This document shows positions 1,443 to 41,530 of a DNA stretch of 64,000 nt, one piece after another. The position numbers were made by a program, and so were the translations under genes. The stretch spans positions 1-64,000 of IMG/VR virus record IMGVR_UViG_3300027747_004722; one strand, 5' to 3'. This DNA comes from a virus. How positions within the stretch are numbered: position 1 is the first letter of the stretch; each line of letters starts with the position of its first letter. The notes under the pieces are model-generated. The model saw only the letters and a program-made list of their open reading frames with translations. It ran no database searches and was not told the DNA's origin.

Positions 1443-4256
1443 TCAACTGAAATTCTGGGAGGCCGCGCCATACCAATAAGTCCCGTCAGACACGAACGTC
1501 AAGATATCGATCTTGCCCGCGCCTGTCGTGATCGTGGGTGCCGTTCCGCCAGCCCATTTGACGCTGGTGAATGTCGCCGTGAACGAACCGTTTTGCGTCA
1601 AGAACAAGGTGAGCGACGCACCAGCCGACGCGCTGGGCATGGCGAATGTGCAACTGGCAGACAGCGTGACGGTTTGAACTGAACCACTGGAGAGCGACAG
1701 CGTGAGAGCAGACCCGCTGTTGCCGACGCTCACTGCTTTCTCGACAATAACCGGCAATCGCGCAATGTTTAACGTGCCGCTGCTAATGTTCGACGCGTTG
1801 GTCGTATCAGTTGTGGCGCTGGTCGCCAGACCGCTGACCGCACCCGCTGATATTGCAATGGCCGTCGTGCCTGCGGAAGTCACCCTGCCGTCCGACCCGA
1901 CAGTGAACGTGGCGACAGACGAGGCCGAGCCGTAGGAGGCGGCAGTAACGCCCGACGCGGCAATCGACGGATTCGGGTACGTCCCGGCGAGCGAGCCGCC
2001 AGCCGAGCCGGTCGGGGTCCGCGAGTCCGAGAGCCGCGAATCATTGCCCTGACAAAATGTGTTTGCAGTTGTACCGAACGCGCCGGTTGTAAGCACACCA
2101 GAAGTGGTCGTAATGACTGGGAGATTTGCGGTACTCCCAATAGCGCCGGCATTGGTAATGTTGCCGTGCGTGTGCGACGATGCCGCTCCAGCAGTTGTTT
2201 GAGTTGTGTTGTCCGAAAATGTTATGCCAGCATTAGAATCTACTATTTTTAGCGAATTAACATAGGTTTTGTTTGGCGAGTTAGCCGTGATGCCGGAGCC
2301 GATAATGTGGGCGTTAGATTGATTGTTGGTGTTGTTGTTGTGGCCGCCAAGGACTGAAGAGTAGTCGCCGCTCGCGGTGTTGAGCCTGCCGCCGCCGACG
2401 GTGCTGCGGTTGCCGCTGGCGGTATTAACTTTGCCGCCGCCTACGGTGCTGATGTATGCACTTGCGGTGTTGCCCACGCCGCCGCCGACAAAACTCCCGT
2501 ACCCGCTTGCGGTGTTGTTGAAGCCGCCGCCGATAGTGCTGTAGTCGCCGCTCGCGGTGTTGACCCTGCCTCCGGCGACGGTGGCACAGCCGTAGTAGCC
2601 GCTAGCGGTGTTGCCGCGGCCGCCGCCTACGGTGGAGTCGCCGTAGCCTGCGCCCACGCCGACGGTGGCGGTGTTGTACCTTCCGCCGCCTACGGTGCCG
2701 TAGTTGCCACTGACGGTGTTGTTTCGGCCGCCGCCGACGGTGCTGCGGTCGCCGCTGGCGGTGTTCTGCTCGCCGCCGACGACGGTGCAACTTATGCCGC
2801 TGGCGGTGTTTTCAAAGCCGCCGCCGATGATAGACGTGTGATTACTGACAGTGTTGCCATAGCCTCCGCTGATAACACTGCTTCCACAACCATCGGCCAC
2901 AGTGTTGTTAAAACCACCTCCGATAAACGCACCAACACCGTTTGCACTGTTATGCGAACCACCGCCGACGGTGCTGTAGGTGTTGCTGGCGCTGTTGCTT
3001 CTGCCGCCGGATACGGTGCTGTAGTTGCCGCCGGCGGTGTTGCTTAAGCCGCCGCCGATGATGGCAGCAGAGCCGCTGGCTCCGTTAGTAAAACCACCGC
3101 CGACAAATGCACCAAACCCGCTTGCGGTGTTGCCTTGGCCGCCAGCGACAGTACTGCCAAACAGCCCGCTTGCCGTATTATGCTGGCCGCCGCCAACCGT
3201 ACCAAAGTCCGTATTAGCGGTGTTCTGCTCGCCTCCGCTAATGGTGCTGTAGTTGTTGCTGGCGGTGTTTTGTTTGCCGCCGCTAATGGTGCTGTAGTTG
3301 TTGCTGGCGTTGTTGCCAATACCGCCGCCGACGGTGCTGCGGTCGCCGCTGGCGGTGTTGTCTCGCCCGCCGCTGACGGTGCTGAAGTTGCCGTTGGCGG
3401 TGTTGAGCCTGCCGCCGCTGACGGTGCTGATGTAGCCGCTGGCGGTGTTGCTATAGCCGCCGCCGACGGTGCTGATGTAATTGCTGGCTGTGTTGTTTCT
3501 ACCGCCGCCGATGACGCTGCGTTCGCCGCTGGCGGTGTTGTTGAAGCCGCCGCCAACAGTGCTGCGGTTGCCGCTTGCCGTGTTGTTTCTGCCGCCGCCT
3601 ACGGTGCTGTAGTAGGCGCTGGCGGTGTTGCTCTGTCCGCCGCCGATGGTGCTGCGGGGGCCGCTGGCGGTGTTGAATCTGCCGCCGCCGACAAAACTAA
3701 AATCACCGCTGGCGGTGGCTTGGTAGCCGCCGCTGACGGTGCTGACGCCGCCGCTGGCGGTGTTGAATCTGCCGCCGCCGACAAAACTAAAATCACCGCT
3801 GGCGGTGGCTTGGTAGCCGCCGCTGACGGTGCTGTTGTAGCCGGCGCTGTTAAAAATGCCGCCGCCGATGGTGCCGTAGTCGTTTTGAGCGTGGTTGTTC
3901 CAGCCACCGCTGACGGTGCTTCGGGCGCCGCTGGCGGTGTTGAGCACGCCGCCGCTGACGGTGCTGACATAGGCGCTGGCGGTGTTGAGCACGCCTCCGC
4001 CGACGGTGCTGGCGTAGCCGCTAGCGTTGTTACGATCGCCGCTGACGGTGCTGTAAGTTCCGCTGGCGGTGTTTTCTCTGCCGCCGCCGACGGTGCTGAG
4101 GTCGCCGCTGGCGGTGTTGTTGCCGTTGACAGGTTGGATGCTGTTTGTGCCGGAACCGGTTGTGTACGGGCTAGATCCGCCACCACCGCCGGTGACAGAA
4201 GAGTCCAGTGTCGCGTTCTTGAGCGTCTTGCCGCCAAAATTGATTTCGTTTGCCAT
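1443..4256 (-). CDS. Long tail-fibre/adhesin with YadA-head-like repeats
   Basis: 937 residues. Residues about 25-640 are some forty short repeats of the form GGGxxNTASGxxSTV, the pattern of left-handed beta-roll head repeats of trimeric YadA/Hia adhesins, which also occur in phage fibres. Residues 640-760 carry features typical of phage fibre stalks (a HTHGNI motif, then QGNDSRLSDSRTPTGSAGG). The C-terminus is a Gly/Ser-rich beta domain. The protein probably trimerises and binds a cell-surface receptor. It heads the leftward fibre group with the FN3 proteins downstream. Repeat number likely varies: one pair of units is an exact DNA duplication. Long plus-strand ORFs across it are antisense shadows of the low-complexity repeats. 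Confidence 0.75.
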   Translation of the reverse strand: MANEINFGGKTLKNATLDSSVTGGGGGSSPYTTGSGTNSIQPVNGNNTASGDLSTVGGGRENTASGTYSTVSGDRNNASGYASTVGGGVLNTASAYVSTVSGGVLNTASGARSTVSGGWNNHAQNDYGTIGGGIFNSAGYNSTVSGGYQATASGDFSFVGGGRFNTASGGVSTVSGGYQATASGDFSFVGGGRFNTASGPRSTIGGGQSNTASAYYSTVGGGRNNTASGNRSTVGGGFNNTASGERSVIGGGRNNTASNYISTVGGGYSNTASGYISTVSGGRLNTANGNFSTVSGGRDNTASGDRSTVGGGIGNNASNNYSTISGGKQNTASNNYSTISGGEQNTANTDFGTVGGGQHNTASGLFGSTVAGGQGNTASGFGAFVGGGFTNGASGSAAIIGGGLSNTAGGNYSTVSGGRSNSASNTYSTVGGGSHNSANGVGAFIGGGFNNTVADGCGSSVISGGYGNTVSNHTSIIGGGFENTASGISCTVVGGEQNTASGDRSTVGGGRNNTVSGNYGTVGGGRYNTATVGVGAGYGDSTVGGGRGNTASGYYGCATVAGGRVNTASGDYSTIGGGFNNTASGYGSFVGGGVGNTASAYISTVGGGKVNTASGNRSTVGGGRLNTASGDYSSVLGGHNNNTNNQSNAHIIGSGITANSPNKTYVNSLKIVDSNAGITFSDNTTQTTAGAASSHTHGNITNAGAIGSTANLPVITTTSGVLTTGAFGTTANTFCQGNDSRLSDSRTPTGSAGGSLAGTYPNPSIAASGVTAASYGSASSVATFTVGSDGRVTSAGTTAIAISAGAVSGLATSATTDTTNASNISSGTLNIARLPVIVEKAVSVGNSGSALTLSLSSGSVQTVTLSASCTFAMPSASAGASLTLFLTQNGSFTATFTSVKWAGGTAPTITTGAGKIDILTFVSDGTYWYGAASQNFS
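3661..3834. repeat. 84-bp direct duplication in fibre gene
   Basis: Bases 3661-3744 and 3751-3834 are identical over 84 bp, a period of 90 bp, inside the much more degenerate repeat field of the fibre gene. The perfect match indicates a recent in-frame duplication of two beta-roll units. Confidence 0.85.
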
Positions 4257-24053: not shown

Positions 24054-25943
24054 ATGGGAGAGGTTCTGGTTTCGTGGCGTGGCGGCCGGCTTTCAATGAC
24101 CAACAGGAACTGCTGGTGCGACCGCGGCAACAGCATGGAGAGGCTCATCTCCCAGGCGTTCTCCTCCATGACCGAAGACGAGAAGTCCTTGATCGCCCCC
24201 TTCGACCTGGTCTTCAGGGTCGACGACCACGGCAACGGAGACTACACAATATGCTCCGACAGGTACACGGACAAAACCCTGCCGTGCTACATCTTCGACC
24301 ACTGGCGCGAGGCGAAGATAGACGACTACGCGGAGATGTGCGAACGCATCAAGGAAAGAGCCCTTCTTCCCTACAAACACGACAAGCTCTTCTGGGCCGG
24401 CCAGATGAGCCATCCGACGAGAAGGAAGTTTGTCGAACAGTTCTCGTCGCACCCCAAAATGCACATCGTCAGCCACAGAGACCACTGGGGGCACGCAGGG
24501 CAAGTTCCGTCGGGCTACATCTCTCTCCCAGACCACTGCGACTACAAGTACATGCTAGACCTGCAGGGCAACGGATACAGCGGTCGAACCAAGCTGCTGC
24601 TACACACGAAAAGAACCCTGTTCTACCAGACCAGAAAGTTCCATGAATACTGGTTCTGGAGGATGGAGCCGTTCGTTCACTACATACCTGTCGCGGAAGA
24701 CCTGTCGGATATGGGTGAAAAGTTCGAATGGGCAGAGTGCCACCCGGAAGACTGCACAAGAATAGCCGAAGATGGATACAAGTTCGCCTTGGAAAATTTG
24801 AAGAGGTCTGACGCCGTGGACAGGCTGAAGAGGATATTCGTCAATGTCGGAGGAGGCAAGAAAGTGTATCCGTCGATAACTCTTTGCGTATTGGCCTGCG
24901 CCAAGAACGACAAGTACAAGAAGAGGCTCCGCGATTTCGTAGACAGCTACGGCTTCAAGAAGTCCAACCCGGAAGTTTCCGCCAAGGTGGTGTTCCTCGT
25001 GGAAGACGAGGAAAGGCCGGAGTTCCTGGACGACTCCTACGGCTGGCATAATTCCCCTGGTCTGCCTTTGAGCATGAGATTCATGCAGTACCTCTCCGAA
25101 GAGGGATGCGATTCGGATTGGATAATGCAGGTGGACGACGACTCCAGCACCGACATAGACAAAACGATCGAACTCTTAGAGCAGTACTATGACCCGAGAG
25201 ATTCGCTGATTCTCATGGGAGGCAGAAACACCGACCTTGAGATGGGACTGCAAAATATAATCAGAATAATGAACGTCCCCAACTTCCTGTTCGCCAGCGC
25301 AGATATAAGCAAGTTTGATACCACGCCTTACTTTATACACGCTTGGGAGCCGTCGATAATATCAAGGCCTGCCGTGGAAAGAATGCAGAATTGGGAGGGT
25401 TTCCGCGAGTTCATGGAATTGTGCAAAAGCAGACGTCCGACATTCAGCGACCAAGCCCCCTATGTCGCCGCCCGACTCGCTAAAGTTCCGATAGTGGAGT
25501 GCCTTTTCATTTCGCCTTTCTGCAAGAATCAAGACTACTCCGCAATCAACCCCCACGGAAGATTCTCCCACATCCACTATGTCACAGAAAAATGGGGAGA
25601 GTACGAGCAGTTCAAAAGGAATATGCTTGAAGTCAAGAGCAATCAGCCGATCAGCAAAGACCCCAACGCGGGAGAACTATGGGATTTTTATGCCGATGAG
25701 AATGGACGACGCAGAAACATAGGAATATTAAGGCTAGACACAGACGGCAAAATAGGCATCTACAACAATTTCAATGAAAGATTCTGGAAACACGAGGGGG
25801 ATTCTATAGTCATAATGGACGAGAACAAATCCATCACATGCGTCATGTCCAAAATTTCGGAAGACAAGTATTCAGGACTATTTGTAAGAAACGCAAATGT
25901 CACGCACAATATTGAAAAAATAAAAGTTTTAAATCACTCGTAA
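24054..25943 (+). CDS. Two-domain glycosyltransferase (GT90/CAP10 plus GT-A-like)
   Basis: 629 residues. Residues about 50-260 match the GT90 (CAP10/POGLUT) family, for example DYKYMLDLQGNGYSGRTK, the QTRKFHEYWF step and the HYIPVAEDLSDMGEK loop. Residues about 280-500 look like a second transferase with a metal-binding VDDDSSTD. GT90 enzymes add xylose or glucose to proteins or capsule. No ribosome site; an A+T box (TATTATTATT) abuts the ATG. First gene of the glycan cassette; its end overlaps the convergent gene by ten bases. Confidence 0.75.
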   Translation: MGEVLVSWRGGRLSMTNRNCWCDRGNSMERLISQAFSSMTEDEKSLIAPFDLVFRVDDHGNGDYTICSDRYTDKTLPCYIFDHWREAKIDDYAEMCERIKERALLPYKHDKLFWAGQMSHPTRRKFVEQFSSHPKMHIVSHRDHWGHAGQVPSGYISLPDHCDYKYMLDLQGNGYSGRTKLLLHTKRTLFYQTRKFHEYWFWRMEPFVHYIPVAEDLSDMGEKFEWAECHPEDCTRIAEDGYKFALENLKRSDAVDRLKRIFVNVGGGKKVYPSITLCVLACAKNDKYKKRLRDFVDSYGFKKSNPEVSAKVVFLVEDEERPEFLDDSYGWHNSPGLPLSMRFMQYLSEEGCDSDWIMQVDDDSSTDIDKTIELLEQYYDPRDSLILMGGRNTDLEMGLQNIIRIMNVPNFLFASADISKFDTTPYFIHAWEPSIISRPAVERMQNWEGFREFMELCKSRRPTFSDQAPYVAARLAKVPIVECLFISPFCKNQDYSAINPHGRFSHIHYVTEKWGEYEQFKRNMLEVKSNQPISKDPNAGELWDFYADENGRRRNIGILRLDTDGKIGIYNNFNERFWKHEGDSIVIMDENKSITCVMSKISEDKYSGLFVRNANVTHNIEKIKVLNHS

Positions 25944-34810: not shown

Positions 34811-35782
34811 ATGATATTTGACGAGCAGATAAGCAGAAAACCAGATCGCTATCCATGGACTCAAGAGTTCATAGAGGCCATGCACAACGGTTTCTGGACG
34901 GACAAGGAATTCAGCTTCCAGAGCGACAAGCAGGACTTCATGGTTTCCCTGGACGAACAAGAGCGGGAGATCATAATCAGGGCCCTCGCCACCATCGGCC
35001 AACTTGAAATATCCGTCAAGAAGTTCTGGGCGAAACTCGGCGACAACCTCCCGCACCCCAGCATCAACGACATGGGGTATGTCATGGCGAATACGGAGGT
35101 GATCCACGGGGACGCCTACGAGAGATTGCTCGAGGTGCTGGGGATCGACGACGCGTTCGACAAAATTCTGGAACTCGACATCATCAAGGGCAGGGTCAAC
35201 TACCTGCGCAAGCACCTCCATAAGTTTCACTCGGACAACAAGAAGCAGTTCGTCTATTCCCTGATCCTCTTCACGCTGTTCGTCGAGAACATAGCCCTCT
35301 TCAGCCAGTTCTACACTATTAGCTGGTTCGGACGCTACAAGAATGTGCTCAAGGACACGAATAAGCAGGTGGAGTACACCAGCCGGGAAGAGAACCTCCA
35401 CGCCATGATCGGCATGAAACTCATCAAGGCGATCAGAAAAGAGTGCCCAGAGCTGTTCGATGAGGAACTTGAGGAGAAGATACTCCACGAGGCCCAGGAG
35501 GCCATCAAGTACGAGATGCAGATCGTCGAGTGGATCGTCAACGGATATGGAGAGGAAAAGCTGAACTCCGAGGTTCTCAAGGAGTTCATAAAGGACAGAA
35601 TGAACCACTCCCTGAAAGAGATTGGATACAAGAAGGTCTTCGAAGTCGATAAGAAACTGCTGTCGAAAACCATTTGGTTTGAAGAACAGGTTCTCGGAAA
35701 CAATCAGAGTGACTTTTTTCACTCAAGGCCTGTAGAATATTCTAAAAAAGGGAAGAGTTTTGCGGCAGAGGACTTGTTTTGA
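34811..35782 (+). CDS. nrdB: Ribonucleotide reductase small subunit, class Ia
   Basis: 323 residues. Radical centre EVIHGDAYERLL: Glu96, His99 and Tyr103 correspond in spacing to E115, H118 and Y122 of E. coli NrdB. FVENIALFSQFY and SREENLHAMIG give further iron ligands. The C-terminus FAAEDLF fits the tail that docks into NrdA. It supplies the tyrosyl radical for making dNTPs. Ribosome site AAAGGAA before ATG. Its stop overlaps the TTG start of a homing endonuclease gene that splits it from nrdA. Confidence 0.92.
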   Translation: MIFDEQISRKPDRYPWTQEFIEAMHNGFWTDKEFSFQSDKQDFMVSLDEQEREIIIRALATIGQLEISVKKFWAKLGDNLPHPSINDMGYVMANTEVIHGDAYERLLEVLGIDDAFDKILELDIIKGRVNYLRKHLHKFHSDNKKQFVYSLILFTLFVENIALFSQFYTISWFGRYKNVLKDTNKQVEYTSREENLHAMIGMKLIKAIRKECPELFDEELEEKILHEAQEAIKYEMQIVEWIVNGYGEEKLNSEVLKEFIKDRMNHSLKEIGYKKVFEVDKKLLSKTIWFEEQVLGNNQSDFFHSRPVEYSKKGKSFAAEDLF

Positions 35783-37260
35783 AAAAATTGACCCACGAAG
35801 AATTTGTGAGCCGCGCCAAGAAGATATATGGTGATCGATATGACTATGAACAATGTAAGTACGAACACAGCCTTAAAAAGGTAATAATATCATGCCGCAT
35901 TCACGGGCCATTCAAAATAAAGCCCAGCAATCACATAAACAACCGTCAAGGCTGTTGGCATTGTGGAAATGAATCGACGGGCGTCAAACAAAAGAGGACG
36001 ACAACAGAGATTGTGAACTTGATTCAGGCAAAGCCGAATTCCGAAGCCTATGATTTCTCTTCGATTGTGGGGGTCAACGACTATAGGTCGGATTTGGTCA
36101 CCGTAGTCTGCAAGGAGCATGGAAGTTACGAACGAACTGTCCGAGACATACTGCGCAGCAAATACTTCGGATGCAAAAAGTGCAAAATAGCAGATGATAC
36201 ATTTACTAGGGAAATATTCATAGAAAAATCAAGCAAGACGCACGACTCCCGCTACTCCTACGACAAAGTCCGCTACACCAAAGCTCATGATCCGGTCGTG
36301 GTGACCTGCCCCGAACACGGCGACTTTGTCACGGCGCCTTACATACACATCAAAGGAGGCGGCTTCTGTCCGATTTGCGTAAGCCACACCAGTTCGTACG
36401 AGATCGAACTCGCCGACTATATCAAAAACCAATTCCCCGACCTGCCGATAAAGACAACCTGCAAGGAAATCGAAGGGGTCAGCGAGGTTGACATCATGGT
36501 GTATTCCGCCAAGGTCGCGCTCGAACTAGACGGCCTCTACTGGCACAGCGACATCTTCAAGAAAAAGAACTACCACCTTGAAAAAACGGTCGCCGTATCC
36601 AAGGCGGGGCACAGGCTCATTCACATATTCGAAGACGAATGGAGAGACAAGAAAGATATTTGCAAGTCGATGGTCGCAAACGCCCTTGGCCAAACCAAAA
36701 CGAAGATTCATGCGAGAAGTTGTTCGGTGCGTGAGGTGCCTTCGCGCGAGGCGTCAGACTTCCTCCAAGCCAACCACATACAGGGGCGATGTGCCTCGCT
36801 CTATAGGTATGGTCTCTACAAAGACGAGATTTTGGTGGCCCTTATGACCTTCGGCGGCAACCGAGTGTGCCTCGGAGCCAAGAAAAAATTGTCGGAGTAC
36901 GAGTTGCTTCGTTTCTGCAATGCCAGGTTCACATCCGTCGTGGGCGGCGCCTCCAAAATCTTCTCCCACTTCGTATCGGCTCACCAACCACAAAAAGTGA
37001 CCAGCTACTGCGACAAAAGATGGGGAACCGGCGGCCTGTACAAAACCCTTGGCTTCAAAAAGGCAAAAGACACGCCCCCCAACTACTTCTATGTCAGGGG
37101 AGGAAAGAGGTTCGGTCGCTTTGGCTTCCGAAAGAATGTGCTCGTCGCCAAAGGGCACGACCCCAACAAAACTGAGCGACAAATAATGTCCGACCTTGGC
37201 TACAACAGGATTTACGACTGCGGGAGCATGAAATTCGAATGGAAAAGAAAACAGGCATGA
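35779..37260 (+). CDS. Vsr-like (EDxHD-type) homing endonuclease
   Basis: 493 residues. The N-terminal 200 contain repeated zinc modules (VIISCRIHGPF...GCWHC, VVVTCPEHGDF...FCPIC) of the DUF723 type. The catalytic core near 225-300 has SEVDIMV...ELDGLYWHSD and LIHIFEDEW, the pattern of Vsr/PD-(D/E)XK homing nucleases such as I-Bth0305I. The C-terminal half is a second domain, ending RIYDCGSMKFEW. TTG start overlaps the nrdB TGA; its end overlaps the nrdA ATG. It lies next to an intein-bearing gene and probably targets the intein site in nrdA. Somewhat A+T-rich at its start. Confidence 0.8.
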   Translation: MKKLTHEEFVSRAKKIYGDRYDYEQCKYEHSLKKVIISCRIHGPFKIKPSNHINNRQGCWHCGNESTGVKQKRTTTEIVNLIQAKPNSEAYDFSSIVGVNDYRSDLVTVVCKEHGSYERTVRDILRSKYFGCKKCKIADDTFTREIFIEKSSKTHDSRYSYDKVRYTKAHDPVVVTCPEHGDFVTAPYIHIKGGGFCPICVSHTSSYEIELADYIKNQFPDLPIKTTCKEIEGVSEVDIMVYSAKVALELDGLYWHSDIFKKKNYHLEKTVAVSKAGHRLIHIFEDEWRDKKDICKSMVANALGQTKTKIHARSCSVREVPSREASDFLQANHIQGRCASLYRYGLYKDEILVALMTFGGNRVCLGAKKKLSEYELLRFCNARFTSVVGGASKIFSHFVSAHQPQKVTSYCDKRWGTGGLYKTLGFKKAKDTPPNYFYVRGGKRFGRFGFRKNVLVAKGHDPNKTERQIMSDLGYNRIYDCGSMKFEWKRKQA

Positions 37261-39338
37261 CAAACAAGGACTATTATTGGCTCAACTCCCATAGCCGCCT
37301 CTTCCTCGAGCGCGGATACCTCGAGCCGGGCGTGACCCCCGAGCAGAGGATAAGGCAGATAGCTGACAACGCCGAGTCCATCCTCAAGGTCAAGGGTTTC
37401 GCCGACAAGTTCGAGGGCTACATGAAGCGGGGCTTCTACTCCCTCGCCACCCCGGTCTGGTGCAACTTCGGCAACAAGAGGGGGCTCCCGGTCAGCTGCT
37501 TCGGCAGTTACGTCGAGGACAAGATGGAGAGCATCCTCACGAAGGCGGCCGAGGTCGGGATCATGAGCAAGATGGGGGGCGGCACCAGCGGCTTCTTCGG
37601 AGCCCTAAGGCCACGCGGGACGAAGATCAGCGTGGGCGGCGAGAGCAGCGGCGCCGTGCACTTCATGGAGATTTTCGACAAGGTCAGCGAGGTCATCAGC
37701 CAGGGCAGCGCCCGCAGGGGATCGTTCGCCGCCTACATGCCCATAGAGCACGAAGACATCGAGGAGTTCCTCCGAATCAGGAGCGAGGGACACAGCATCC
37801 AGAACATGAGCATCGGGGTCACCGTCACCGACAAGTTCATGAAAGACCTCATCGAAGGGGACAAGGACAAGAGGGCCATATGGGCCAAGGTCATACAGAA
37901 GCGGTTCGAGACCGGATACCCGTACATCATGTTCGTCGACACGGCGAACAAGAACGCCCCCAAGGTCTACAAGGACAAGAAGCTGAAGATAAAGGCAAGC
38001 AACCTCTGTGTGGCCCCGGACACCCTCTTGCTCACCCGCGACGGGGAAATCACGATCGGAGACCACGAGGGCGAGGAGGTCGAGGTCTGGAACGGCAAGG
38101 AATGGTCGGACACGGTGATCCGAAAGACCGGCACGAACCAGCCCGTCCTTGAAATCAAATTCGTCATCAGGGAGCTGGACGACGACGACACCCAGTCGCT
38201 CAAGTTCTCCTCACTGAAGGCCACTGAATACCACAAGTTCTACCTGAAGAACGGGTCGGAGGTCAGGGCTTCCGAACTCAAGCCGGGGGACGAACTCCTA
38301 CGATTCACCGACCACAGGGGCAGGCTCGCCAGGACGGAGGTCCTCGAGGTGGCCCCCGCCGGGAACAGCGACACCTACTGCGTCAACGAGCCAAAGGAAC
38401 ACAAGGCCGTCTTCAACGGCGTCCTCACCGGCAACTGCTCGGAAATACAGCTGTTCTCCGACGAGGAAAACTCGTTCGTTTGCGTGCTGTCGAGCCTGAA
38501 CCTCCTGCACTGGGACGAGATGGCCGACACAGACGCGGTCGAGACCATGGTCATGTTCCTTGACGCCGTCTGCGAGGAGTTCATACGCAAGACCGAGGGC
38601 GCCAAGTACATGGAGGCCCCCCGACGCTTCGCCATGGAGCAGCGCGCCCTGGGCCTCGGCGTTCTCGGATGGCACTCGTACCTCCAGAGTAAGATGATCG
38701 CCTTCGAGAGCATGGAGGCGAAGATGAAGAACGCGGAGATATGGAAGAAGGTGCGTGAGCGGGCCGACAAGACGACGGAGCAGATGGCAAAGGACTACGG
38801 CGAGCCTCCGCTGCTCAAGGGCTACGGGAGGAGGAACGTCACCACGCTCGCGGTCGCCCCCACGACCTCCAGCAGCTTCATACTCGGCCAGGTCAGCCCC
38901 AGCATAGAGCCCCTGAACAGCAACTACTTCGTCAAGAACCTGGCCAAGGGGAAGTTCACCTACAAGAACCCGTACCTCAAAGAGACTCTCAAGAAGTACG
39001 AGAGAAACGACGAAGACACATGGAAGACCATTCTGGTCAAGGGTGGATCGGTTCAGCACCTGGACTTCCTCACCAAGGAGGAGAAGGACGTCTTCAAGAC
39101 CTTCGGAGAAATCTCCCAGAAGGAGATCGTGATACAGGCCGCCCAGAGACAGAAGTACATCGACCAGTCCCAGAGCCTGAATCTCATGATTCCGCCTTCA
39201 ACTTCACCCAAGGATGTCAACAGTCTTCTGATCGAGGGTTGGGAGATGGGCGTAAAGACCTTCTACTACCAGAGGTCTGCCAACCCGGCCCAGGAACTGG
39301 CCCGCAGCATCCTGACCTGCTCGTCGTGCGAGGCATAA
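37257..39338 (+). CDS. nrdA: Ribonucleotide reductase large subunit with mini-intein
   Basis: 693 residues as translated; 550 after splicing. Class I RNR barrel with VSCFGSYV (redox Cys), NMSIGV, the catalytic Cys in NL|C-SEI after the intein, FVCVLSSLNLL (second redox Cys) and a C-terminal CSSCEA pair that passes reducing power. No N-terminal ATP-cone, so the overall activity switch is probably absent. It reduces ribonucleotides to deoxyribonucleotides with NrdB. ATG at 37257 overlaps the homing endonuclease stop. Confidence 0.92.
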   Translation: MTNKDYYWLNSHSRLFLERGYLEPGVTPEQRIRQIADNAESILKVKGFADKFEGYMKRGFYSLATPVWCNFGNKRGLPVSCFGSYVEDKMESILTKAAEVGIMSKMGGGTSGFFGALRPRGTKISVGGESSGAVHFMEIFDKVSEVISQGSARRGSFAAYMPIEHEDIEEFLRIRSEGHSIQNMSIGVTVTDKFMKDLIEGDKDKRAIWAKVIQKRFETGYPYIMFVDTANKNAPKVYKDKKLKIKASNLCVAPDTLLLTRDGEITIGDHEGEEVEVWNGKEWSDTVIRKTGTNQPVLEIKFVIRELDDDDTQSLKFSSLKATEYHKFYLKNGSEVRASELKPGDELLRFTDHRGRLARTEVLEVAPAGNSDTYCVNEPKEHKAVFNGVLTGNCSEIQLFSDEENSFVCVLSSLNLLHWDEMADTDAVETMVMFLDAVCEEFIRKTEGAKYMEAPRRFAMEQRALGLGVLGWHSYLQSKMIAFESMEAKMKNAEIWKKVRERADKTTEQMAKDYGEPPLLKGYGRRNVTTLAVAPTTSSSFILGQVSPSIEPLNSNYFVKNLAKGKFTYKNPYLKETLKKYERNDEDTWKTILVKGGSVQHLDFLTKEEKDVFKTFGEISQKEIVIQAAQRQKYIDQSQSLNLMIPPSTSPKDVNSLLIEGWEMGVKTFYYQRSANPAQELARSILTCSSCEA
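38007..38435 (+). other. Mini-intein at the NrdA catalytic cysteine
   Basis: Residues 251-393 (143 aa) interrupt the NrdA active-site motif. Block A is CVAPDTLLLTRDG, block B has ATEYHKFYL (TxxH-like), block F is SDTYCVNEPKEH, and the end is GVLTGN followed by the +1 Cys. The penultimate His usual in inteins is Gly here. No endonuclease domain is present. Splicing would rebuild NL-CSEI, whose Cys is the thiyl-radical residue, so the enzyme is inactive until spliced. Confidence 0.88.
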
Positions 39339-39339
39339 A

Positions 39340-39816
39340 ATGAACTTCGTATCAAGATGGTTCTACAGGGCCAAGACGGACTACGATGTCCCGCACGTGC
39401 GCGTCCGGCTTCTGGACGCGGACGCCAAGACCCCCGTCCGTTCCAACCCGACCGACGCAGGAGCCGACCTGTCCAGCACGGAGAGCGTCATGATCCACCC
39501 CGGCGAGCGGAAGACCGTCGGCACCGGCGTGGCCATGGAAATACCGGAGGGGTTCTACGGGAGGGTCGCGCCGCGTTCGGGCCTGGCGAGCAAGCACGGC
39601 GTCGACGTTCTCGCAGGCGTCGTGGACAGCTCCTACAGGGGCGAGATAAAGGTGGTGCTGTTGAACACCGACAAGCACAACACCTTCCATGTCGAGAAAG
39701 GGGACAGGATAGCCCAGATCATATTCGAGGGCCATTTCAACTTCCCCCTGGTGGAGTCGGACTCCCTGGAGAATTCCAGCCGCGGGTCTGGGGGCTTCGG
39801 TTCCAGCGGTAAATGA
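39340..39816 (+). CDS. dut: dUTPase
   Basis: 158 residues, trimeric dUTPase. All five motifs are visible: DAGADLSS, PRSGLASK, GVVDSSYRGEI, KGDRIAQIIF and RGSGGFGSSG. Converts dUTP to dUMP, keeping uracil out of phage DNA and feeding thymidylate synthesis. The first 18 residues are an extra basic extension. Next to nrdA in the nucleotide operon; ATGA overlap with the SET gene. Confidence 0.92.
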   Translation: MNFVSRWFYRAKTDYDVPHVRVRLLDADAKTPVRSNPTDAGADLSSTESVMIHPGERKTVGTGVAMEIPEGFYGRVAPRSGLASKHGVDVLAGVVDSSYRGEIKVVLLNTDKHNTFHVEKGDRIAQIIFEGHFNFPLVESDSLENSSRGSGGFGSSGK

Positions 39817-40196
39817 AAAATTTCGCTCCCTTTCTCGACGAACGCCTTCACATCACGTGGGACGAACGCATGGGGCATTGCGTCTTCACCAAGGGAGAAA
39901 TCAAGAGCCAGACCTTCGTGGAGATAGCCCCCGTGGTCGACTTCATGCCCGAGTGCCAGGTCGACCACAACCTGATGAGGTACGTCATCGCGTGGGAGGG
40001 CCGGCTCGCGGTGCCCCTCGGCTGGACCATGATCTACAACCACAGCGACGACAACAACTGCGCCTTCTCAATGAACTTCCACGACAAGCTCATCGCCATC
40101 ATGGCCCTGCGGGACATCAAGGCGGGCGAGCAGATGACCGTCAACTACGGCCCCGACTGGTTCTCCTCTCGCGGGATGGATAAGATGCCTCTATGA
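39813..40196 (+). CDS. SET-domain protein
   Basis: 127 residues. The SET core is short: FTKGEIKSQTFVEIAPV at the front, MIYNHSDDNNC as the NHS motif, and DIKAGEQMTVNYGPDWF as the last strand and knot. SET enzymes methylate lysines with SAM. Stand-alone small SET proteins occur in large phages; substrate unknown (host or virion protein). The first ten residues (MKNFAPFLDE) also resemble the tag described elsewhere, which may be chance. Confidence 0.75.
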   Translation: MKNFAPFLDERLHITWDERMGHCVFTKGEIKSQTFVEIAPVVDFMPECQVDHNLMRYVIAWEGRLAVPLGWTMIYNHSDDNNCAFSMNFHDKLIAIMALRDIKAGEQMTVNYGPDWFSSRGMDKMPL

Positions 40197-40563: not shown

Positions 40564-40920
40564 ATGCAATTCAAGGATTTCATCCTGACCGAGGCGGACC
40601 AGTACTTCGCCCAGAGGGTGTCTGATGTGCTGAACGCGCTTCAGGACTTAAATGACAGCGCCGGGGACATGGGCACGAGGCACCTTGTGTCCAACGCCCA
40701 GACGATAGTCAACCAGATCCGCCGGATCGTCCACACCCACTGGTCCCAGCGCCACGAGCCTGGTCTAACGGCACTCCAGAAGTGCGGTGTGGCCGTCATG
40801 AGGGCGATAGAGGAGAAGGACGACCTCCAGGGCGTCCTAAAGGCCTGCCAGGCCCATCTGGAGGCTCTTTCGGGCAAACAGGACAAGCCGTCCAACTCAC
40901 TTGCTTCTGAAGAGCAATAG
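40564..40920 (+). CDS. Tagged helical protein MQFKDFILTEA
   Basis: 118 residues. The N-terminal MQFKDFILTEA has the tag and an LxE site (ILTE) at residue 10, closely matching the T4 internal-protein leader layout. The rest is alpha-helical with no recognised motif. A CTAGATAG box ends four bases before the ATG, with no ribosome site. Confidence 0.6.
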   Translation: MQFKDFILTEADQYFAQRVSDVLNALQDLNDSAGDMGTRHLVSNAQTIVNQIRRIVHTHWSQRHEPGLTALQKCGVAVMRAIEEKDDLQGVLKACQAHLEALSGKQDKPSNSLASEEQ

Positions 40921-40963
40921 CCCCCGCTTTTGGTATTTTTTTCTTCCGCACTACATAGACTTT

Positions 40964-41530
40964 GTGGAAGAAGAAGATTCTGAAATAGAGGATATTCTCA
41001 AGAGCAGGCCCAAGAAGATAAAGTCTGGCCGAAAGGGCAAGAGGGTCGAACTCGACCTCATCAAGAAGCTCAACGACAGGTTCCGGGACGTCATCGCCGC
41101 CCGCCCCGGGGGCGGGTCGTTCAACCGCACGGTGGGCAGCGGAAATCGCTGGGGGCAACGGGTTCACCTGTCGAGGGCGGCCTCCGACACCTACACGGGC
41201 GACATCGTGTGCCCGGAGGGCTTCCTGTTCGTCCTGGAGAGCAAGGGAGGCTACAACGACATCGACCTCTGCACCGCCTTCTCGGGCCGCCAGGCCGAGC
41301 TCGATTCCTTCCTAAAGCAGGTCAGCGACGACTCCAAGAGGTGCGGCAGGATGCCTCTCCTCCTGTGGAAGAAGGACAGGAAGCCGCGGCTGGCCTTCCT
41401 CAGGTCCGCAGACCTCGGGGGCAGGGAGTTCCCCTGCATGATGCGGTACGGCCAGTGGACGGCACTGCTGTTCGACGACCTCATGTCGATCGGGGACGAC
41501 TTCTTCTTCAGCAGCCCAGCGCGGCCCTGA
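40964..41530 (+). CDS. PD-(D/E)XK nuclease
   Basis: 188 residues from GTG 40964. Helix KGKRVELDLIKKLNDRF, then GDIVCPEGFLFVLESKGGY with the Asp and ExK pair (ESK) of the PD-(D/E)XK fold near residues 87-103. Resembles archaeal Holliday-junction resolvases and RecB-like nucleases. A CTACATAG box lies five bases upstream. T4 uses gp49 for resolution; no gp49 is seen here, so this could take that role. The end overlaps the convergent gene by 23 bases. Confidence 0.65.
   Translation: MEEEDSEIEDILKSRPKKIKSGRKGKRVELDLIKKLNDRFRDVIAARPGGGSFNRTVGSGNRWGQRVHLSRAASDTYTGDIVCPEGFLFVLESKGGYNDIDLCTAFSGRQAELDSFLKQVSDDSKRCGRMPLLLWKKDRKPRLAFLRSADLGGREFPCMMRYGQWTALLFDDLMSIGDDFFFSSPARP

Follow-up and report, generated by a model that had tools for sequence, protein, structure and literature searches.

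At the nrdA/nrdB junction of T4-like phages reside the free-standing homing endonucleases Hef (phage U5) and MobE (T4), both of which cut nrdB (PMC2988022). A second type of arrangement is represented by F-CphI, an Endo VII-type nuclease whose gene adjoins the nuclease-free group I intron in psbA of S-PM2. For this pair, cutting at the insertion site has been shown, and in this case of collaborative homing the splicing element blocks self-cutting (PMC6083498). Fusions of a Mom-family domain with a REase-fold nuclease occur in jumbo phages and are predicted to be restriction-modification-like proteins (PMC7824862). Inteins reside in NrdA of the cultured phages Caulobacter phiCbK, Brevundimonas Gurke, Escherichia SelmaRatti, Curvibacter P26059A and Pseudoalteromonas PH357, and mini forms at the same site are present in Nitrincola 1M3-16 and Burkholderia FLC6.

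The locus described here brings together an intein and a nuclease gene, each of a known kind, in one ribonucleotide reductase (RNR) operon. The window, i.e. the whole stretch of DNA analysed, comprises 64,000 nucleotides (positions 1-64,000 of IMGVR_UViG_3300027747_004722, a 99-kb IMG/VR virus record), and all of its genes mentioned below lie on the plus strand. The class I RNR small subunit of 323 aa is encoded by nrdB (34811..35782; Pfam Ribonuc_red_sm, E 1.6e-51). It is followed by a free-standing homing-endonuclease-type gene with a TTG start and a product of 493 aa (35779..37260; PHROG 559/3339, E 2e-113/1e-100) and by nrdA (37257..39338; TIGR02510 NrdE-prime, E 4.5e-229; PDB 6dqw), whose precursor of 693 aa contains the intein. 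ATG 37257 is the likely nrdA start; an alternative in-frame ATG at 37239 would give a precursor of 699 aa. As the initial annotation had described, the nuclease gene overlaps both neighbours, namely by four bases (TTGA) where its TTG at 35779 meets the end of nrdB, and by four bases (ATGA) where its stop codon (37258-37260) meets the likely nrdA start. A free-standing homing-type gene at an RNR gene junction is what Hef and MobE exemplify, and MobE also shows overlapping start and stop codons. MobE is an HNH enzyme, however, unlike the EDxHD nuclease of the window, and the kinship of the latter with Hef rests on the annotation of other authors.

Other genes of the window deserve mention. A SET-domain protein of 127 aa, unusual for a phage, is encoded directly 3′ of the dUTPase gene in the same gene row (39813-40196; Pfam SET, E 6.5e-13). 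A putative phage PDDEXK endonuclease is located at 40901-41530 (Pfam PDDEXK_15, E 5.7e-18), and the phage gene at 24054-25943 carries a glycosyl transferase family 90 domain (E 1.7e-23).

The mini-intein in NrdA

The intein of 143 aa (38007..38435) interrupts NrdA between SNL and CSEI. Its translation extends from C1 to N143 with KASNL and CSEIQ as flanks, and intein-free relatives read through an uninterrupted SNLCSEI. Its initially annotated placement just before the catalytic cysteine held to the exact nucleotide. The NrdA extein aligned end to end with the solved RNR alpha chains 6dqw/6dqx (E 5e-201) and also with E. coli R1 across the NLC motif region. By way of the established C439 motif of E. 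coli, we take the +1 cysteine of the intein to be the RNR radical cysteine.

Several lines of evidence identify the element as a class 1 mini-intein. C1, the block B TxxH motif (TEYH with T73 and H76), H132, the C-terminal asparagine of G142-N143 and the +1 cysteine are present, and the AlphaFold model (pLDDT 95) displays a HINT fold whose leading Foldseek PDB matches are inteins (NpuDnaB, E 6e-8; NrdJ-1, E 1e-7). The match to NCBIfam TIGR01445 intein_Nterm had an E-value of 1.3e-4, at 22.9 bits slightly below the cut-off of 24.5 bits. T73, H76 and N143 are invariant in 14 aligned intein homologues. Conservation of the intein core despite diverged synonymous sites is an indirect hint that the element splices. 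In agreement with the initial annotation, the 143 aa contain no nuclease domain.

The penultimate histidine usual for class 1 inteins is replaced by glycine. This substitution, which had been noticed before, is found as G142 in 14/14 aligned homologues, and the glycine is shared throughout the intein lineage, LAGLIDADG-bearing versions at the same site included, with Gly-Asn or Gly-Gln as the end in the examples inspected. On this comparison of sequences, it is a lineage-wide feature rather than a defect or a peculiarity of the copy in the window. Splicing without the penultimate histidine has been reported, according to a title cited in PMC8772380. At the same NrdA site, the inteins of five other loci (L113, L114, L116, L119 and L120) end in Gly-Gln instead of His-Asn, and their C-terminal cyclisation would thus have to use glutamine.

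Like the intein of the window, those of the cultured phages are inserted between SNL (or SQL or TNL) and C, end in FNG-x-x-(T/A)G(N/Q) before that cysteine and lack the penultimate histidine. Their splicing parts are about 36-49% identical to it. Unlike it, most are 307-341 aa long and have an extra central domain, which Pfam identifies as LAGLIDADG in the kindred L109 and L210. The close kinship to environmental split inteins proposed in the initial annotation stood only in part. NrdJ-1, gp41-1 and related split inteins share the HINT fold, and NrdJ-1, which also has an RNR host, gave a weak profile match (E 0.004). In contrast to these, the intein of the window is contiguous; its sequence similarity to them is weak, and its nearest kin are contiguous phage NrdA inteins.

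The nuclease and its Mom-like domain

The protein encoded between nrdB and nrdA is composed of three zinc repeats, an EDxHD (Vsr-like) nuclease domain and a C-terminal Mom-like domain. The three CxxH...CxxC zinc-ligand repeats (35893..36378) are DUF723-like (E 8.6e-8), and 12/12 ligands (C39, H42, C59, C62; C111, H114, C132, C135; C177, H180, C197, C200) are invariant in 49 nuclease homologues. The same holds for D238, E249, W255-H256, H266, K269, H282 and E285-D286-E287-W288 of the nuclease domain (36391..36678), all of which are kept in the window. The family profile matched PDB 3r3p, 'Mobile intron protein' (E 4e-4), in line with the Vsr-like nature initially assigned to the gene; a match to MTES_1575 was weak. 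PDB 3r3p is presumably I-Bth0305I. The catalytic domain hence resembles that of I-Bth0305I and the EDxHD homing endonucleases, whereas I-Bth0305I is intron-encoded and the nuclease of the window is free-standing with a Mom-like domain. Relatives of the nuclease adjoin gp32 or capsid genes in cultured phages, and kin of the nuclease carry Hef-like annotation. Conserved putative catalytic residues, DNA-binding repeats and the optional occurrence of the gene between two conserved genes all agree with a homing endonuclease.

The C-terminal domain (residues 305-480; 36691..37218) has a GNAT fold, and its best Foldseek match was Mom of phage Mu (8bv8, E 1.5e-6). The nuclease of the window also matched phrog_1384, a group of Mom-like proteins (E 5.5e-7), as did 21 of the 49 homologues. 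The domain is conserved across all 49 aligned family members, in which the putative active-site residues H333, E375, R378, D412, R414 and Y421 are invariant and aligned with identical residues of Mu Mom, the pairing of H333 coming from the HMM alignment only. The position aligned with S124 of Mom is a serine in 31/49 homologues, and the profile-profile score against Mom was weak. Mom was not returned by a sequence search of the domain against the PDB; the link is based on the fold search, PHROG 1384 and the direct profile comparison.

A fusion of Mom with a nuclease as such has already been described and is not new. Mom-REase fusions of jumbo phages are predicted to act in a restriction-modification-like manner (PMC7824862), and the protein of the window could be a weapon of this type, which would modify its own genome and destroy unmodified DNA of the host or of superinfecting phages, its position in the operon being incidental. 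The Mom-like fold and the invariant putative catalytic residues would suit this role. However, the zinc repeat array and relatives annotated as 'homing endonuclease' in PHROG are features of homing genes, as are the exact insertion between two conserved genes and the absence from sister phages. The position of a homing gene and the zinc repeats distinguish the nuclease from the jumbo-phage fusions, and we consider a role as a mere weapon quite improbable.

The predicted fold of the C-terminal domain suggests a nuclease that protects its own carrier. In a tentative and rather doubtful elaboration of this idea, the zinc repeats would read the target, the EDxHD domain would cut unmodified competitors and the Mom-like domain would acyl-modify adenines in the carrier's own copy. 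If true, homing would be fused with the logic of restriction-modification in one protein.

Distribution and history of the two elements

Relatives of nrdA, the intein and the nuclease were taken from IMG/VR, and each was scored for both elements. Among 62 distinct nrdA exteins, 11 carry the intein. Besides the window, they comprise nine further rows with a mini-intein, of which two are nearly identical, and L210 with a full-length form. The intein and a nuclease gene at the junction occur together in the window only. Ten exteins have the intein without the nuclease, and one (L092) has the nuclease without the intein. Nearly all relatives lack the nuclease between nrdB and nrdA; the two genomes in which it resides there are the window and L092, whose nuclease is 53% identical and has the same insertion point and the same overlaps. 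At six further loci, a relative of the nuclease lies 0.55-1.3 kb from a different nrdA with an intact NLC site. No bacterial carriers of the NrdA intein were found in a genome scan.

Intein carriers cluster on the extein tree, and the intein-free L091 and L092 are nested among them; intein presence requires at least four to five changes in all. Occasional homing could account for this patchy absence, and so could loss. Intein and extein distances are correlated among nine carriers (Mantel r=0.55, P=0.005), with intein distances about three times larger, and divergence at four-fold sites is similar in intein and exteins. Intein and nrdB distances are not correlated (r=0.08), as expected if nrdB and nrdA have recombined. 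GC3 is 0.87 in the intein, 0.85-0.90 in the exteins and 0.63 in the nuclease gene. Since its divergence follows that of the exteins and its GC3 matches the host gene, the intein looks like an old resident of nrdA; the nuclease, by its composition, looks like a newcomer. Identity profiles against relatives were also inspected for recent co-conversion around the intein and revealed no island of high identity there, in a set of relatives whose divergence is too deep for detecting short tracts.

A likely picture of the ancestor of the mini-intein is provided by L210. With the same nrdB-nrdA layout, it carries the same NrdA intein (2695-3675 of that locus), which there includes a LAGLIDADG domain (Pfam E 2.7e-9). 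Identity over the last 22 intein residues amounts to 91%. In both L210 and L109, Pfam assigns the domain to LAGLIDADG_3. Most simply, the mini form would be a derivative that has lost its nuclease.

The history of the nuclease can be approached by comparison with L082, the nearest intein-bearing relative, which shares the intein and is devoid of the nuclease. The two differ most in a single tract that begins at nrdB codon 203, includes the nuclease and ends at nrdA codon 3 (35417..37265); divergence amounts to 26.6% in it, against 11.1% (permutation P about 0.003). The nrdA exteins lie outside this tract; for the intein, a separate comparison gave 81% DNA identity. Variation at the 3′ end of nrdB is also seen in other pairs (L093-L105). 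The tract is likely the footprint of a gain or loss of the nuclease, with either the window or L082 as the recombinant, and the simplest reading is a recombination in which the nuclease was gained or removed along with the end of nrdB. A footprint in nrdB fits intronless homing as described for Hef and MobE, not a cut at the intein site.

These results bear on the claim of the initial annotation that the nuclease spreads the intein. In such collaborative homing, the nuclease would cut intein-free nrdA at the intein site, repair would move both elements, and the intein would protect its carrier. The layout resembles that of the S-PM2 psbA intron and F-CphI (PMC6083498) in that a nuclease gene lies beside a gene with a nuclease-free splicing element, although cutting has been shown in that case and the window is known from sequence. 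Furthermore, the distance from the end of the nuclease gene to the intein is 747 bp, and MobE mobilises a nearby nrdB intron in trans (PMC2988022). Joint inheritance, however, was not found among the 62 exteins, and the comparison with intein-free relatives that had been proposed as a check uncoupled the two elements: ten other intein carriers lack the nuclease, L092 maintains the nuclease beside an intact intein-free site, and the sites of the six more distant nuclease-nrdA neighbours are intact as well. From this distribution, the nuclease has no need of the intein and is not its regular companion. The footprint on the nrdB side, ending at the start of nrdA, and the apparently long residence of the intein also speak against the claim, which we now regard as very unlikely.

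Protection of L092 by a change of its intein site was considered and rejected. Its protein sequence there is identical to that of intein carriers (KASNL before CSEIQLF), and its DNA shows only synonymous differences over the nearest codons, with no resistant variant evident.

The two elements might still be coupled more loosely, the nuclease homing for itself and long repair tracts sometimes bringing the linked intein into intein-free phages. Their close linkage, the repeated changes in intein presence on the extein tree and the ability of free-standing nucleases to cut at a distance of hundreds of bp or more from their own gene (PMC2988022) favour this possibility. Yet the nuclease was found in no other intein-bearing relative and the tract that was found ends before nrdA proper, which makes such occasional carriage of the intein as a passenger rather unlikely.

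In L135/L136 and L145/L146, the nrdB-nrdA junction is taken by another ORF, which is about 290 aa long and has HTH domains; the junction thus seems to be a hotspot for free-standing genes. For the ORFs of L135 and L145, a GIY-YIG assignment made by eye was discarded, as Pfam found HTH domains only. In L140 (IMGVR_UViG_3300021962_005667), an intein of about 318 aa lies inside nrdB at a conserved EE...H motif, between REE and C at its start and between AGN and CLHSMIG at its end (Pfam Intein_splicing, E 1.5e-6, below its cut-off).

Two mobile elements in one operon

On the whole, the RNR operon probably harbours two selfish elements that are independent of each other. The mini-intein would descend from the lineage of LAGLIDADG inteins found at the same NrdA site in many phages; its nuclease domain was probably lost before diversification of the phage clade, and since then it would have been inherited mainly with nrdA. 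It is expected to excise post-translationally and to join SNL to the radical cysteine, its own +1 nucleophile. The EDxHD nuclease would be a Hef-type free-standing homing endonuclease of the nrdB/nrdA junction, whose most likely way of spreading is to cut a neighbouring gene, probably nrdB, of phages without the nuclease, whereupon repair would copy the nuclease gene together with part of nrdB. DNA modification by the Mom-like domain may protect the carrier. Self-cutting would then be prevented without an intein, and such modification would explain how L092 tolerates the nuclease without an intein. At most, a long repair tract would carry the intein along by chance.

A preference of two mobile elements for the same essential operon can therefore produce a layout resembling collaborative homing, and comparison across relatives separates a partnership from two independent elements. 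The more interesting question concerns the activity of the Mom-like domain in a common homing-nuclease family. Tying this widespread family of free-standing nucleases to a Mom-like DNA-modification fold provides a concrete hypothesis for how such an enzyme may spare its own genome.
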